From positions 1 through 36,692 of the IMG/VR virus record IMGVR_UViG_3300003702_000022: a stretch of DNA of 36,692 bases; one strand, 5' to 3'. The notes under the pieces were generated by a model. It made no database searches, was not told the origin of the DNA, and saw only the letters and a list, made by a program, of their open reading frames with translations. A program made the position numbers and the translations under genes. Source of the stretch: a virus. This document shows positions 17,366 to 24,896 of this stretch, piece after piece (position 1 is the first letter of the stretch; every line of letters begins with the position of its first letter).

Positions 17366-19882
17366 CTACCGCCTTCCGTCTGGCCTGATGTCTAGTCTCG
17401 TGTCACCCAATCTCCATCCCACGTTCGTTCCGGTGGATTCAAACCTCACCGCAATCTGCCTACCTCGAACGCGAACGTAGTCTTGCGTGGTTGTATCCGT
17501 GATGGCCGATGAGGACGGTGAGGAATCTTCGGCATCATTTGGGAAATCCTTCTTTTTGATCTGGATGGTCAAGTCGTTTCCATCTAGGAACAGTACATCG
17601 GGAATGATTCTTGAGATGAATGAGAAGTGATCACCGTCGTCGAGATCGAAATACCCAGACTCGATGAACGATGTCATCGCAGTATCTACCTCTTCCCAGC
17701 CAGTCTCCTGCTCGTAAATCTTGGATGTATTGTCGTCAGAGCTATAAATTGCAGCCGCCTGCGGCTTCTCCCTCAACCCCGAATCACTCCATGCTGTTCT
17801 CTCCATGGTTCCAATAGTCCATAGATCCTCTGAGTAGTTATAGGTTACGTACCGATCAGGCTCTAGTGATTCCCCGGACGGATAGAAGAATGTAATCTCG
17901 TTAAATTCATTATTGCTCGCCGAGAAGATCACCTCACGCTGCGAGTAGTTCAGGTCTCCAAAGACATAGTTCAATACGCTGCACGGAATCGCGGAGATGG
18001 TTCCGTTGTAAACGTAGAAGTTCCGGTCGCCCATCCAGTAGATGGAATCCGCCGAAGCCACGTAGGCCAGAGGCCCCATGATCGAGATATTGCTCGCCAG
18101 TTCCGAAAATCTAAAGACTCCGTACTCGCTCTCGGGACCAAGCCAATCCATCTTGTAGATGGCAGCGTCCGTCCAGATCAAGACCTCCATCTTGGAACGG
18201 CAAGCGCCAATTATTTCTGATCCAGTGGAGAGAATCTGGTACCCGGAAATGCCGGGTCGATGCGTATCCAAGTGATCCCAAGATCCCGGGTAGAGATCAG
18301 ATGACCAACGGACCATCATCGGATTGAATATTCCGCCATAGTCGGAACACCCGAACGCAACAACCTGCCTGCTATTTGGATAAACCATTATCTGCCGAAC
18401 CTTAGTAGGTGCCGCACTTACCGCATCCGTGGAGTCTGTGATCGAATAGTCCGGATCGAAGTGAGAACCGATTGTATTCAGCGGCATCGCCTGCGCGAAC
18501 GCAACATTAAGGTTTATCTGCGCTCCCGCTGTGGAGGGACTTCTGTTTGGGATACCTTCCGTTATCTTCTGCGAGATATCCCAGTAATACGGTGTTCCAT
18601 CTCTTGGGCACAGAACCAAGTCCTCCCCGTAGTTGTCGATAGACCAGATGCGAATCGCATCGGTCGTTGTCGCGGTATCTCCCCAGCCATCAGCACCCCA
18701 TCCTCCAGCGCCCCACCCGGATGCCCCCAAGTAACTCACGATACCGGAGTTGATATCGTGAAGGATGTAGGTGAGTCCGGCAGCAACGAAGTCAACCTTA
18801 TCAACGCTTATAGTGGCACCCGGTACAACAGTATGGGGGGCGGCAACGGAACCAAACTCGCCCCTCGCGCTTACAGTAAGACTAGCGCCACTAACGCTTG
18901 CAATCTTTATGTACTCATCTTCAATCTTTACATAAAAGTTAGTGCCACTAAAAACCGAACTCGTCACAACGATAGGGCTTGTGGATACTGTTATAGATGT
19001 ACTCAAATTAGATGTGATAGTGGACGCTCCGGAATCCCCGATCTCTATCTCGTAGTTATCGTCATCGAGGCTTCGGCCTACCCGGAATCCATCGGTTGTC
19101 AGGAAGTCATCATCGTCCACTGTTCCATCGCTAACCGCAGCACCCAACTGCAAGAAGGTGACGTAATCACCTGAGATGCAGCCATGATCTTCCTGACGGA
19201 TCAGGACGGTGGCCGAACCATTCACTAGACCAATGGGGCCACCGAGACTCGCCGTAGTGGGGGCGCTCCTGACCTCTGCCTTGGGGATCCTCTCAATGGT
19301 TGGTCCCTTGGCAGTCGTGGAGTTGTAACTGTGCTTTTGCTCCGTAGAATCCAAGTAGCCACGAGTGACGGTTAGGGTATCGGGGTCCGCCCCGGCATTC
19401 GTTCCAGATACATACACGTACTCAAACGGACCACCTACATCGTCCGCTCCAGATACACCCCCATCTGCATTGGAGACAACCGGAGAAGAAATCCTTCCGA
19501 CATCTCCGATTATCCATCCCTTTGCAACAACGTCCCCATTGGTAATAGAGACCGTTACACCAGAAGTCGTTATCCCAGTAGTTAGATACGAAAGTCCATA
19601 TTCATACGAAGGGGTGATGTCATAGATATCCCCGCCAAGCTCAACGTAGATGCGGGAGTTAGTGCAGATCCCCAAGTAGTTATTCTTGAGAAGACTTGAC
19701 CAGTTATGGAGTGAACGGCATACGCCAAAGACGGTACTAGCAGAACGCTCTATCCAGCCACCGATCTTTTCGGCTCGCCCCTTGCGGAATCGAACCTTGT
19801 CGCAGTTGTACCAACCCCCCTCTGCGGAGTATCCCGTTCCCTCTCTATCGATTCCGGCCTTGAGGTTGAGCTTCCTGAGCAT
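17366..19882 (-). CDS. Tail nozzle / DNA-stabilisation-like protein (T7 gp12 / P22 gp10 role)
   Basis: I place the start at the ATG at 19882 (838 aa). It overlaps the upstream stop as TAATG and is preceded by GAGGAG. A longer reading from 19936 would add 18 residues unlike the family's usual start. The N-terminus (LRKLNLKAGIDREGTGY, GGWYNCDKVRFRKGRAEKIGGW) is a signature I recall from marine podovirus tail proteins. The middle is rich in Trp and Gly blades (VRWSSDLYPGSWDHLDTH, MEVLIWTDAAIYKMDWLG, DSIYWMGDRNFYVYNG), consistent with a beta-propeller. The C-terminus ends GRQIAVRFESTG...GWRLGDTRLDIRPDGRR. It probably forms the nozzle below the adaptors. The assignment rests on remembered family resemblance and context. 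Confidence 0.78.
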   Translation of the reverse strand: MLRKLNLKAGIDREGTGYSAEGGWYNCDKVRFRKGRAEKIGGWIERSASTVFGVCRSLHNWSSLLKNNYLGICTNSRIYVELGGDIYDITPSYEYGLSYLTTGITTSGVTVSITNGDVVAKGWIIGDVGRISSPVVSNADGGVSGADDVGGPFEYVYVSGTNAGADPDTLTVTRGYLDSTEQKHSYNSTTAKGPTIERIPKAEVRSAPTTASLGGPIGLVNGSATVLIRQEDHGCISGDYVTFLQLGAAVSDGTVDDDDFLTTDGFRVGRSLDDDNYEIEIGDSGASTITSNLSTSITVSTSPIVVTSSVFSGTNFYVKIEDEYIKIASVSGASLTVSARGEFGSVAAPHTVVPGATISVDKVDFVAAGLTYILHDINSGIVSYLGASGWGAGGWGADGWGDTATTTDAIRIWSIDNYGEDLVLCPRDGTPYYWDISQKITEGIPNRSPSTAGAQINLNVAFAQAMPLNTIGSHFDPDYSITDSTDAVSAAPTKVRQIMVYPNSRQVVAFGCSDYGGIFNPMMVRWSSDLYPGSWDHLDTHRPGISGYQILSTGSEIIGACRSKMEVLIWTDAAIYKMDWLGPESEYGVFRFSELASNISIMGPLAYVASADSIYWMGDRNFYVYNGTISAIPCSVLNYVFGDLNYSQREVIFSASNNEFNEITFFYPSGESLEPDRYVTYNYSEDLWTIGTMERTAWSDSGLREKPQAAAIYSSDDNTSKIYEQETGWEEVDTAMTSFIESGYFDLDDGDHFSFISRIIPDVLFLDGNDLTIQIKKKDFPNDAEDSSPSSSAITDTTTQDYVRVRGRQIAVRFESTGTNVGWRLGDTRLDIRPDGRR

Positions 19883-21144
19883 TACCGCACCAGCCACTCC
19901 TCGGTAACAGCAGACACGTCCCGTAGCTTTCGCCATGACGGATGAACCGGCGCACCCTTTCGGATGTGGATTCTTCCTGTCATTCCAATGACCGCCCAGT
20001 CAGATCGGGCCATTCGGGGGATGTACTCCCGGCTTTCTTCAAAGTCGGGATTGATCGTTGCCGTGGGCTTCTCGTCTACAGTGTGGGTTACGACGCGACC
20101 GAAGCCATCCTTGAGGAACTTGTTATCCCAATGGGCCCACGCCGCATTGCCGATCATGCAGGCGGTGCCGCTCACGGCACCAACGACATCTTCGGGATCA
20201 TCGCTGCTCGTTGCGGGACGAACCCCACCAGATAAGCCCCCATCCACCACAACTGTCAGGCCGATACGATCCTCTGCTTCGGGATTGCCATCGGACCACT
20301 CGAACATATCCGCATAGTCAGCGGCTTGAACGGTAGTATTCTGTGCATAGATCGTACCCGCACCATTAACCCTGAATTGGTTTACCGTATTGGCATCTGC
20401 CTTAATGAAATTAAACCCGGCATCAGCGGCATCCGTGGTCGTTAAATGAAGAGCATTGCCCGTATAAGTTGCATTTGTATTGTTGACCGTTAGTACATTA
20501 TTGGACGTATGATCAGAGTTGACATGAAGTTTATCGTTCGCCATGTCCCCGTATATAAACTGCAGGGTGCTTTTGTCATTGTTATGGTTCTCATAGTCAA
20601 TGATTAGGATACTGTCTTCCTCAACATCGCTAGAGCCGACATCATAGCCGATAAGTATATTCTTACTTTGGGTCGAAACGCCAGAGCCAGCATAAAAGCC
20701 AATTGCCGTGTTATAGTCTCCCTCGATAAAGCCGTTACAAGCCCTGAATCCAATTCCTACATTTCCAGTACCCGTGCAACTATCGCCCGCCTGCGAACCA
20801 ACGAAAACATTATTGTCCGCGGACGTTATTGTCGCCCCTGCTCGGTACCCGATAAACACGCTGTTCACTGCACCGGCTACACTATCACCGGCAAGGGAAC
20901 CAATGAACACATCCTGTATCTGCGTCGTTGTTCCAACGGCAGGTTTGCCAGCATCCTTACCAATGGCGACTGTATTCGCTCCGAAATAATTTGAGTCCGA
21001 GTCCGCATCAAGAACGAACTCAGGAGCAGTTCCGCTTAGTTGACCCTTACTTCTCGGAACGAGACGGAGGCCATTGCAATTAAGCATACTGGTCGCGGGC
21101 CAAACGTAACTATTGGCTGGCGTGGAGTCGATGTAGGTAACCAA
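19882..21144 (-). CDS. Tail fibre/spike C-terminal part with head repeats and Peptidase_G2 autochaperone domain
   Basis: 420 aa from a TTG at 21144; no ATG or ribosome site supports this start, and the frame is open further upstream to 21249. Residues 53-175 contain about five degenerate repeats of the form NxxxG..AG..xxxGxxNVFIG, like trimeric adhesin head repeats. Residues about 271-420 match the Peptidase_G2 (intramolecular chaperone) domain: DYADMFEWSDGNPEAEDRIG, then VVGAVSG, EYIPRMARSDWAVIGMTGRIHI. By family knowledge this domain trimerises the fibre and then cuts itself off. The N-terminal anchor is encoded by the ORF at 21150-21578 in another frame, so the two are probably one gene (see frameshift feature). 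Confidence 0.8.
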   Translation of the reverse strand: MVTYIDSTPANSYVWPATSMLNCNGLRLVPRSKGQLSGTAPEFVLDADSDSNYFGANTVAIGKDAGKPAVGTTTQIQDVFIGSLAGDSVAGAVNSVFIGYRAGATITSADNNVFVGSQAGDSCTGTGNVGIGFRACNGFIEGDYNTAIGFYAGSGVSTQSKNILIGYDVGSSDVEEDSILIIDYENHNNDKSTLQFIYGDMANDKLHVNSDHTSNNVLTVNNTNATYTGNALHLTTTDAADAGFNFIKADANTVNQFRVNGAGTIYAQNTTVQAADYADMFEWSDGNPEAEDRIGLTVVVDGGLSGGVRPATSSDDPEDVVGAVSGTACMIGNAAWAHWDNKFLKDGFGRVVTHTVDEKPTATINPDFEESREYIPRMARSDWAVIGMTGRIHIRKGAPVHPSWRKLRDVSAVTEEWLVR

Positions 21145-21149
21145 CGGGA

Positions 21150-21249
21150 CTACATCACCCGGCTGTAACTCGAAGCATTTCGCAACAGTATCCGCGCTAC
21201 CGATGTACCGTTTAGGGCCCAGAAGAAACGCGGGGGGTAGGTCTGCGTC
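21150..21249 (-). other. Frame overlap with apparent -1 frameshift between the two tail-fibre ORFs
   Basis: The upstream frame runs to TAG at 21152-21150. The downstream (-1) frame is open from just after TGA at 21252-21250, so both are open over 100 nt. Reading the -1 frame here gives GSADTVAKCFELQPGDVVPL directly followed by VTYIDSTP of the downstream ORF, a natural beta-rich continuation. Two candidate sites exist: a run of six C on the minus strand (21237-21232), read as C-CCC-CCG, and a GG pair (21201-21200), where loss of one G would explain the break. Programmed slippage, natural mutation and assembly error cannot be told apart from sequence alone. Confidence 0.7.
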
Positions 21250-21578
21250 TCACCCTGAATTCGGACGTTGAAATTTGCCGCTGGTGGATTAGCTCCAGTG
21301 CCAACCGAGAACTTAACGAACGGTGCGCGTGCCTCACTACCGGAAGCAAGAGCTTCCGAACTATCATCAAGGGTCCATGTCAACGTACCAGTAACGCTGT
21401 CTATGGCCGTACCACTATTCCACCCAGAATAGTCATCATCAACTGCAACCTCGGAATACTGCGTCAGGCACTGGTCAACCTTCTTGAGATTATTATTGGT
21501 CGAATCCCCCCACGTACCAGCCTGTGCGCCGGTAGGGATAAGCTCGAATCCAGTTCCTGTTGAGTAACTTGAGGGCAT
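21150..21578 (-). CDS. Tail fibre N-terminal (virion-anchoring) part
   Basis: 142 aa, ATG start, 3 nt after the upstream gene. The opening YSTGTGFELIPTGAQAGTWG followed by DSTNNNLKKVDQ is the tail-fibre N-terminal motif found across many aquatic phages, which attaches the fibre to the tail. A beta-sandwich follows (TLTWTLDDSSEA, PFVKFSVGTG, PAANFNVRIQG, RFFWALNGTS). The ORF then stops abruptly after RNASSYSRVM. The domain end and receptor-binding part lie in the -1 frame downstream, so this is best viewed as the 5' part of one fibre gene. Confidence 0.8.
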   Translation of the reverse strand: MPSSYSTGTGFELIPTGAQAGTWGDSTNNNLKKVDQCLTQYSEVAVDDDYSGWNSGTAIDSVTGTLTWTLDDSSEALASGSEARAPFVKFSVGTGANPPAANFNVRIQGETQTYPPRFFWALNGTSVARILLRNASSYSRVM

Positions 21579-21581
21579 CTT

Positions 21582-22220
21582 TTACTTGATCCTTATGATC
21601 GCATCATTCACGTCAGCGGTTGGGAACTTGACGGTAAAGGTTGAGGCAGACGGCGAAATTGCCAATCCAAAATCCAAGACGGCAATCGACTTGTTGCTCT
21701 GCGTCGAGTTGTAGATCAAGGCACCACGAGTCTCGAACGATGCGCTCAACCACACCGTATCTACGAAGTCGATGAAAAACGTACTGCCACTTTGGGAAAT
21801 TCCATTGCTTACAAGTATATTTCCACCAGCAATGTAATCTCCAAAAGTAAGTTCTACGCCAGTCCCGCTCCCCACCACTGCTGTTGAAAGCTCAATGTCA
21901 GATGAATTAGTAAGCGTCTTTACGGTCGTTCCCGCAACGATTTCTGGATTACCACTCACGGACGTACCCACGGTAATCCCTGATGTCACCTCGGGTAAAA
22001 CAACGCTTACCAATCCAGCCAAGGCATCCCATGTACAAGTTCTAGTTACGGTACTCGCTGCACTGCTTACTTCATTGGTGGCTGAGTACACCGTTGTCGC
22101 CGGGGTAATGTCCGCATCCTCGGTGTAGAGCGCGATCTTCATCGTGTCTGTACTGAGGTCGTGAACTCCCTCTAGGAGTTGCTCCTTGAACGAATTCGTC
22201 AGGCCAGCAATGACAGCCAT
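21582..22220 (-). CDS. Small tail/virion protein carrying an inserted TRTCT-type repeat module
   Basis: 212 aa. The ATG at 22220 overlaps the upstream stop (TAATG). The frame protein is a family I recall from marine phages: FKEQLLEGVHDLSTDTMKIALY at the start, and WLSASFETRGALIYN, KSIAVLDFG, FTVKFPTAD at the end. Residues about 54-128 interrupt it with TRTCTWDALAG...VTSGITVGTSVSG..IVAGTTVKTL...ELTFGD, which the usual family lacks. The same module occurs twice in the next upstream gene (22220-23335). I infer a beta-sandwich insertion on an exposed loop. Confidence 0.75.
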   Translation of the reverse strand: MAVIAGLTNSFKEQLLEGVHDLSTDTMKIALYTEDADITPATTVYSATNEVSSAASTVTRTCTWDALAGLVSVVLPEVTSGITVGTSVSGNPEIVAGTTVKTLTNSSDIELSTAVVGSGTGVELTFGDYIAGGNILVSNGISQSGSTFFIDFVDTVWLSASFETRGALIYNSTQSNKSIAVLDFGLAISPSASTFTVKFPTADVNDAIIRIK

Positions 22221-23335
22221 TACGCAGCCTTCTGGCGAGTCCGGAAGCCAGTTCGATAATTCCCCTGCTCCGTCATAACGAGCGTTTGGAGAGCTTCCTT
22301 GAACTTGGCATCGTAAAGCTGCATCAAGTCGGCCTCACCCTTCAGGAAGGTGTACGCCTCCACCAAGCAGGCATAGAGCAATGCATTGGTGGCATGGGTA
22401 CTGAGCCACGTAAGATTGTTGCCGAATGTCAGTTCAGTACCTGAACTGCTGGCTGTCGCAACCTCTGAAAGGGTTACCGCCTCGGCACCGAAGGTGATCT
22501 CCGCAGAGCCAGCGCCCTCACCCACGGCAGACATGGTGAGCGTATCGGTATCCGTAATTCCCGCTATCGTCGTGCCCGCGGTAATGTTTGTTCCGCTTAT
22601 CGGATCCCCAAAGCTCAGACCTGCGGTCGATCCAGATGTAAGTTCGAGCGTCGTGTTTGTAGCCGTCGTACAAGTACGAGTCGTAGCTGTAGACCCAATC
22701 CCTGCCACTGTCGTACCGGATGCAATTCCCGTTCCTGTCACCGAAGAACCAATCGCAATACCAGCGGTAGTTCCGGAATCAAGCTGAACGGTAATCGTTT
22801 CGTCAAGCGTGCAGGTTCTAGTAGTGGAGCTTGCATCTGCCGTGATCAACGAATCGGGCTCAAAGAAGTAGAGAATCTCGTAATCGAACGCACCGCTCGC
22901 AATCGGAGCAAACGCAAAGGTTCCAGTGTTCAATGGCGGAGAAGCCTGAGCGTCATTGTAAAACGCATAGTACTTCGGTGTCCCCGTCGCACTATCTACG
23001 GGGGCATACTCCTGAAGGAAGTTGTAATCCTTCAGGAGAAGATAAGACCATGCATTGCCCGCTACGTCCGCACCAGCCCGGATCCTGAAATAGATCGGGG
23101 CAATGGGGCCCGTTACGGAATCGTCAACCGTGACCGAAGTTCCGGATACAGCGAGATCGCCCGTGGTGGACTTCGTATTGTAGTTGGCGATCTGGACGAC
23201 GTAGTTGATCCGCTCTTCGGCCTGACGAATGATGGCATTGATCTGCCCCGTGCCATCTCCCGTGGCACTGCCCCAGTTGGTGTTCTGGGTGTATTCGTTG
23301 ATGGCTTCCTTGAGCGCGGTCAGCGTAAAGGACAC
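22220..23335 (-). CDS. Neck/adaptor protein with two inserted TRTCT-type repeat modules
   Basis: 371 aa from a GTG at 23335, 2 nt after the preceding stop (TAAAAGTG). The frame protein (residues 1-169 and 307-371) looks like the phage adaptor family: LTALKEAINEYTQNTNWG, INAIIRQAEERI, LLLKDYNFLQEYAPV, TPKYYAFY, then LTWLSTHATNALLYACLVEAYTFLKGE...YDAKFKEALQTL. Between them, residues 171-306 hold two modules beginning TTRTCT (171 and 218), each with a SGxTAGxxxG..xxGTxIxxGTTxAGI core, plus an extra ELTFG end. The modules are in a loop just before the conserved C-terminal helices. It acts between portal/adaptor and tail by inference. Confidence 0.78.
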   Translation of the reverse strand: MSFTLTALKEAINEYTQNTNWGSATGDGTGQINAIIRQAEERINYVVQIANYNTKSTTGDLAVSGTSVTVDDSVTGPIAPIYFRIRAGADVAGNAWSYLLLKDYNFLQEYAPVDSATGTPKYYAFYNDAQASPPLNTGTFAFAPIASGAFDYEILYFFEPDSLITADASSTTRTCTLDETITVQLDSGTTAGIAIGSSVTGTGIASGTTVAGIGSTATTRTCTTATNTTLELTSGSTAGLSFGDPISGTNITAGTTIAGITDTDTLTMSAVGEGAGSAEITFGAEAVTLSEVATASSSGTELTFGNNLTWLSTHATNALLYACLVEAYTFLKGEADLMQLYDAKFKEALQTLVMTEQGNYRTGFRTRQKAA

Positions 23336-23862: not shown

Positions 23863-24174
23863 CTAGCTCACTTCTCCGTGAGGGTTTCCTACTGATCCTC
23901 TGAGTTCCATTCCTCGAACGGGGTCAAATGCAGAAAGGCTACGGCTTTCTGCTGCGCCCTGATCAGGACGAGGATCCCTGAGAGCCTGAGCATCTGTGAT
24001 GGGAAATCTCCCAAGCAGATTCTGAGGCTGGTCAGGATCCCAGCATTGAGGACAGACCTTGAGGTTGATCTGGAACTCATTGACTGTCTCTTTCCTGAGT
24101 TCATGTAGCGGGTACTGGAAACCACATCGATCACAGTCTCCAATGGCCTTCTTGCCTACTGCGTAGGCGCTCAT
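23863..24174 (-). CDS. Zinc-ribbon protein
   Basis: 103 aa. Its ATG overlaps the stop of the adaptor gene by 4 nt (ATGA), implying coupled translation. Cys14-x2-Cys17 (CDRCGFQYP) and Cys41-x2-Cys44 (CPQCWDPDQPQ) form a four-Cys zinc ribbon. The C-terminal half is disordered, Pro/Arg-rich. Similar small ribbons sit next to gp4-like adaptors in aquatic phages as I recall. A structural or DNA-contacting role at the neck is possible, but function is unknown. Confidence 0.75.
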   Translation of the reverse strand: MSAYAVGKKAIGDCDRCGFQYPLHELRKETVNEFQINLKVCPQCWDPDQPQNLLGRFPITDAQALRDPRPDQGAAESRSLSAFDPVRGMELRGSVGNPHGEVS

Positions 24175-24896
24175 GTGAAAGTGTATCCGCCCGGGTAGAA
24201 CCTGATCGGAGCCTTCTCCCTGTCTTCGTCGGCAGCAAAGGCGAACTGTTCTTCATAAGCCTGCTTGAGTAGCTGGACTCTATCTGCGGACTCGGGCCGC
24301 TTGAGAGCAATGTTGTACGCAAGACCGGCAACCAGAGCGGGCCAGAACCGATCAGGAACGTCGGCATCGTATGTGCCTCCCGGTCCTGTATCCGTCATGC
24401 GCCTGATCCGGTAATAGATAATCTTGTACTTGGACGAGCTTTCAGGAACGGGCCACACACTGATCGTGGTGCTTCCCTGAAGACGATTTATGTAAACCTG
24501 TACAGGCTTCGCCTGCGTAAGTTTGTTTGGAATACCCGCATAGGTATCCCTAGAGATGCGACCCATTTCATAATCAACCTGAGTCGCGGTATTTCCATCG
24601 TTCTCTCGGAGGAGAACCTCAAGAACTGCAAGCGTTCCACTACGAAGAGTGTACGTAGCCGTCCCTTCAACCAATGGTTCCGTACCAGTTCCGTCTCCCG
24701 CCGAGTCGTAGGTAAGCTCCTCGACCGTCCAGAGGTTGATACCCCGGTTCTGCCATTCGAGCATCATCAGGTCGAGAGAGCGCCGTGCGGTACGGAGATC
24801 GTACCCGGACTGCATCTCCAGACCGGCACGCTCGTAGGCTTCCTCTACGATCTCGCCTACATCGGGTAGGAAATCTGTTGCAGCGTTAACAGCCAT
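24171..24896 (-). CDS. Head-to-tail adaptor (P22 gp4 / T7 gp11-like)
   Basis: 241 aa, ATG start abutting the preceding stop. The N-terminal helical pair (VGEIVEEAYERAGLEMQSGYDLRTARRSLDLMMLEWQNRGINLWTVEE) is the hallmark of phage adaptors that dock under the portal. A beta domain follows (TATYTLRSGTLAVLEVLL, PVQVYINRLQGSTTISVWPVPES, YKIIYYRIRRM). The C-terminal helices (RFWPALVAGLAYNIALKRPESADRVQLLKQAYEEQFAFAADEDREKAPIRF) complete the fold. Motif order and length match the gp4-like family I know from marine podoviruses. Confidence 0.85.
   Translation of the reverse strand: MAVNAATDFLPDVGEIVEEAYERAGLEMQSGYDLRTARRSLDLMMLEWQNRGINLWTVEELTYDSAGDGTGTEPLVEGTATYTLRSGTLAVLEVLLRENDGNTATQVDYEMGRISRDTYAGIPNKLTQAKPVQVYINRLQGSTTISVWPVPESSSKYKIIYYRIRRMTDTGPGGTYDADVPDRFWPALVAGLAYNIALKRPESADRVQLLKQAYEEQFAFAADEDREKAPIRFYPGGYTFT

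Follow-up and report, generated by a model that had tools for sequence, protein, structure and literature searches.

The main finding of this study is that a promiscuous barrel module of about 70 residues appears to have entered, in frame, surface loops in two adjacent neck/tail genes of a phage and, within the head-to-tail adaptor, to be nested in a second copy of itself. The window, by which we mean the whole stretch of DNA analysed, is a 36.7-kb virus record that we read as belonging to a tailed virus of bacteria. A probability of roughly 75% is given to this reading as a whole, including the proposals that the modules had already diverged when they arrived and that they act as passive decoration or in weak adhesion.

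Gene A (22220-23335, minus strand) encodes 371 amino acids, 139 of which form the insert. The description of this protein as adaptor-like was borne out: PF24175 (SU10_adaptor) was matched by 38 of 41 relatives (best 7.7e-39), and the family profile matched the solved adaptors 7z47 (SU10; 4.7e-17), 9nwi (6.4e-11) and 8zkk (9.7e-5). Judged by these profile matches, gene A is an SU10-type head-to-tail adaptor, and its insert lies between the last strand of the adaptor beta domain and the next helix. We note that third-position G+C at fourfold sites was 0.70 in the adaptor core against 0.50 in other structural genes. Gene B (21582-22220, minus strand; 212 amino acids) belongs to the phrog_644 family (E 8e-13) and carries an insert of about 75 residues; from its genomic context it is likely to be a virion protein. 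The structural model of B was weak (mean pLDDT 55), with the best fold matches tied at Z 6.2-6.3. Among them was the GP4 fibre-tail adaptor (Z 6.2 over 101 residues, level with an HFTV1 tail chain), which received no support from B in a sequence search of solved structures; the only matches from that search were antibody chains, which were taken as noise. Elsewhere in the window a second SU10_adaptor match (24171-24896, minus strand; 1.2e-13) indicates that the phage has two adaptor-like genes, and the protein at 19882-21144 (minus strand) has a Peptidase_G2 autoproteolytic domain (8e-28) and resembles pre-neck appendage proteins. A nozzle-like protein (17366-19936, minus strand; 9nwi_Y E 3.6e-12; phrog_3287) extends about 330 residues beyond the length of its family profile; its extra segments resemble other small modules, and two of them are mutually similar around a TRG/ARGE...H motif.

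The earlier note had described three copies of a repeat headed by TRTCT, two in A and one in B. These copies are real: the motif occurs at aa 172 and aa 219 of A and at aa 59 of B, and all pairwise protein scores exceeded the maximum of 500 shuffles (130 versus 67 for A1 and A2, the first and second copies in A; 78 versus 55 for A1 and B; 93 versus 67 for A2 and B). A profile built independently, from 36 module copies found in other phages and zero window sequences, matched A (E 1.3e-11), its relative L004 (E 4.7e-7) and B (E 2e-4), in which the module spans 21834..22061 on the minus strand (aa 54-129) and reached E 4e-7 with the refined profile. A weak match of the independent profile to the gene at 21150-21578 (E 0.07) was gone with the refined profile and was rejected. 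TRTCT itself did not hold up as a special header, being the ordinary first strand of the module, and the exact form was common only to the three window copies among the module copies collected. Two copies are indeed present in A, but they are not in tandem, as A1 comprises only the first two thirds of the module and a tail follows A2.

Profile coverage in A followed the same pattern, A1 accounting for positions 4-48, A2 for almost the entire model and a third short piece for positions 50-73. The first part of the outer module (22679..22822, minus strand; aa 172-219) starts TTRTCT, contains strands 1-4 and scored 28.9 bits alone. It is followed by the inner complete module (22478..22678, minus strand; aa 220-286, with edges accurate to within a few residues), which gave the best summed excision score, and by the last part of the outer module (22418..22477, minus strand; aa 287-306), containing strands 5-6. 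Excision of aa 220-286 left a single continuous match of 54 bits, against 45 bits for the inner copy. None of 300 shuffled tails matched the score of the real tail, and with the junction fixed none of 551 other window segments equalled it. On sequence grounds, A thus contains one complete module (aa 220-286) inside another (172-219 plus 287-306), with the junction at the strand 4/5 turn. A second, weaker case of a module within a module was found at L144 2-1909 (+), scoring 29.5 bits where shuffles reached at most 22.4, in a scan of 230 ORFs, and the nozzle-like L153 5978-8032 (+) has a different, tail-fibre-type segment interrupting its module close to that turn.

The module region was modelled by itself, as joint alignments of whole proteins and modules put the modules in the wrong place. 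The inner A copy was predicted as six strands with pLDDT of about 85-94; the predictions resolved neither the outer A module nor the B module. The suggestion that the repeats form separate beta-sandwich domains was thus half right: the best-modelled copy has a self-contained predicted fold, but this is a six-stranded barrel and not a sandwich. Arthrobacter phage Bridgette supplied the nearest solved relative by profile, its capsid decoration protein (E 5.3e-7 across 74 residues), and the inner A copy matched the same protein in Foldseek (8.1e-4, 34% identity) and in structural alignment (Z 9.5, rmsd 3.3, 75 residues; runner-up Z 7.2). From profile and model together, the module is homologous to the Bridgette protein and, for the inner A copy, has the same predicted fold. 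Neighbours at Z of about 6-7 (Uba1, ATP synthase, the lambda tail tip, the Mystique tail tube and the phi92 tailspike) were set aside as sharing only a common small-barrel arrangement.

Neither Pfam nor NCBIfam gave a credible match to the module itself, and no description of it as a family was found in the open-access literature. A tblastn search of named phages with one window module gave zero matches, and scanning viral contigs with a single copy gave zero relatives, so that a consensus motif was required. With this motif, bacterial and archaeal genomes yielded 113 stretches, and the refined pool held at least 427 module copies, in at least 116 viral and 93 cellular-contig ORFs. Among the matches listed, 23 of 62 distinct viral carriers matched the nozzle-like phrog_3287 and six a baseplate wedge family; other viral carriers matched tail fibre, head closure, minor tail, cement and crAss muzzle families. 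Three giant frames on bacterial contigs (L293, L263 and L217) are autotransporter passengers with several modules beside PATR repeats, which suggests that phage virions and surface proteins of bacteria have exchanged modules. The module represents a widespread and so far uncatalogued domain family, reused by phages and bacteria, with a putative role at surfaces. As the family has no Pfam model even though a solved relative exists, routine annotation misses it. A bolder and still tentative extension is that the module is a self-nesting growth unit, with the strand 4/5 turn as docking site, by which phages might enlarge neck and tail surfaces through module-in-module insertion, and that it may be a general currency between virions and autotransporter adhesins. 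The self-nesting part of this idea draws on the window adaptor, more weakly on L144, and on L153 with its different inner module.

The comparison of relatives took in 197 distinct proteins of the A family and 198 distinct ones of the B family, and counted internal inserts of at least 20 residues. Such inserts were found at two positions in nine proteins of the A family and at one position in two proteins of the B family; these frequencies are lower bounds, because relatives were retained by best match, which favours uninterrupted proteins. The module was present at the A loop of the window in the window protein only, and the exact A and B sites carried it in the window only. Both inserts are absent from the closest relative, L002, whose A core is 87-89% identical, and the B insert is also absent from nearly all other relatives; L003 lacks the A insert and carries a different insert in B. 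The core columns of insert-free relatives align across the gap, which confirms that the host families remain continuous once the inserts are taken out and agrees with the proposal that a mobile beta domain entered two families, each of them whole in its absence. A second loop of A carries the module in seven proteins (L004, L419 and five forming one clade), and in the B homologue of L329 it occupies a different loop, after the first helix. On the adaptor tree, carriers of the module fall in four or more separate places, and at least four loops across the A and B homologues take it, two of which also take unrelated modules. An adaptor homologue, L047 1418-2347 (+), has an unrelated insert of about 93 residues at the A site of the window, the matches of which lie in large virion and tail proteins, and the insert at the B site in L003 5726-6307 (+) is CBM5/12-like (Pfam E 8e-4, below the curated cut-off).

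We propose that a promiscuous Bridgette-type module entered surface loops of two adjacent neck/tail genes in frame. The strand 4/5 turn of the outer adaptor module houses a complete second one, and the outer module is itself accommodated between the beta domain and the helix. The SU10 adaptor is a dodecamer placed between portal and nozzle, with radially protruding loops on its fibre-dock domain (PMC9509320). If the window adaptor is likewise dodecameric, about 24 barrels would ring the neck with the core fold unchanged; from the adaptor architecture, exposure of the modules at the neck is plausible. There they may act as passive decoration or in weak adhesion to the cell surface, as suggested by the Bridgette homologue, the other carriers, and Ig-like and other decoration proteins (PMC7602432). 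Another possibility, which we rate as a serious if lesser contender, is that the modules are near-neutral passengers, phage genes tolerating a stable small domain in a loop without any selected surface function. The patchy, rare presence in both families would fit this; that the module recurs across many families of virion proteins, forms a decoration protein of its own and turns up in autotransporter passengers suggests use, although this is not decisive. Natural before/after pairs for testing the role of the domain on the virion are available in the nested copy and in close relatives that lack the insert.

As to origin, the earlier note had favoured duplication between the neighbouring genes, and the data lend no support to a recent event of this kind. 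The window copies are only 38-43% identical to one another, compared with 87-89% between the A core and that of its insert-free relative, and A1 and A2 have best matches outside the window, among unrelated phage and bacterial copies, that are about as close. Duplication within the genome, with the module entering A or B and then being copied to the neighbour, would need very fast divergence, because the A core has diverged by only about 12% from the insert-free relative. At the DNA level, too, the A and B copies show no clear resemblance, their similarity being near chance, with 7-8% of 300 shuffles equalling the score. The confinement of TRTCT to the three window copies, among those collected, and the narrow lead of A2 as the closest match to B in a set of 496 copies are consistent with duplication, which we nonetheless consider unlikely; the shared TRTCT could perhaps reflect one donor. 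We favour arrival of already diverged modules through recombination with other phages or hosts over recent copying between the genes. A recent foreign origin was not apparent from codon usage, the inserts having third-position G+C of 0.52 and 0.44 at fourfold sites, which is normal against 0.50 for the genome. That the segments are ancestral in both families and were lost in the relatives is highly improbable, parallel loss being a general possibility for which nothing further was found, whereas the module is confined to the window at these exact sites among 197 and 198 distinct relatives and the core columns align through the gap.

Promiscuous phage surface domains are already known, mainly Ig-like, and Ig-like domains of phage structural proteins were reportedly treated by Fraser and colleagues in 2006. 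Ig-like phage domains are usually added domains, whereas the window modules are internal loop insertions. The two share the property of being small promiscuous beta domains added to many virion protein families, but the window module is a predicted small barrel; neither it nor the window proteins gave an Ig-family match, and the fold neighbours listed were small barrels. Ig-like domains occur on many virion families and are thought to act at surfaces (reviewed in PMC7602432). The Bridgette decoration protein (PDB 8eci chain 1) resembles the module in sequence profile and predicted fold; it is, however, a separate capsid protein, while the module is an internal insert in neck genes and in one case nested in itself. 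The SU10-type adaptor (PF24175, PDB 7z47) corresponds to the core of gene A, and the known adaptors in the alignment are without its insert. Domain gain, loss and exchange between close relatives, including in neck passage proteins, have been described (Smug et al., 2023; PMC10684548), and the window provides a comparable example of such shuffling, although the recent cases presented in that study are mostly terminal swaps and the present one is internal, with diverged copies and nested.
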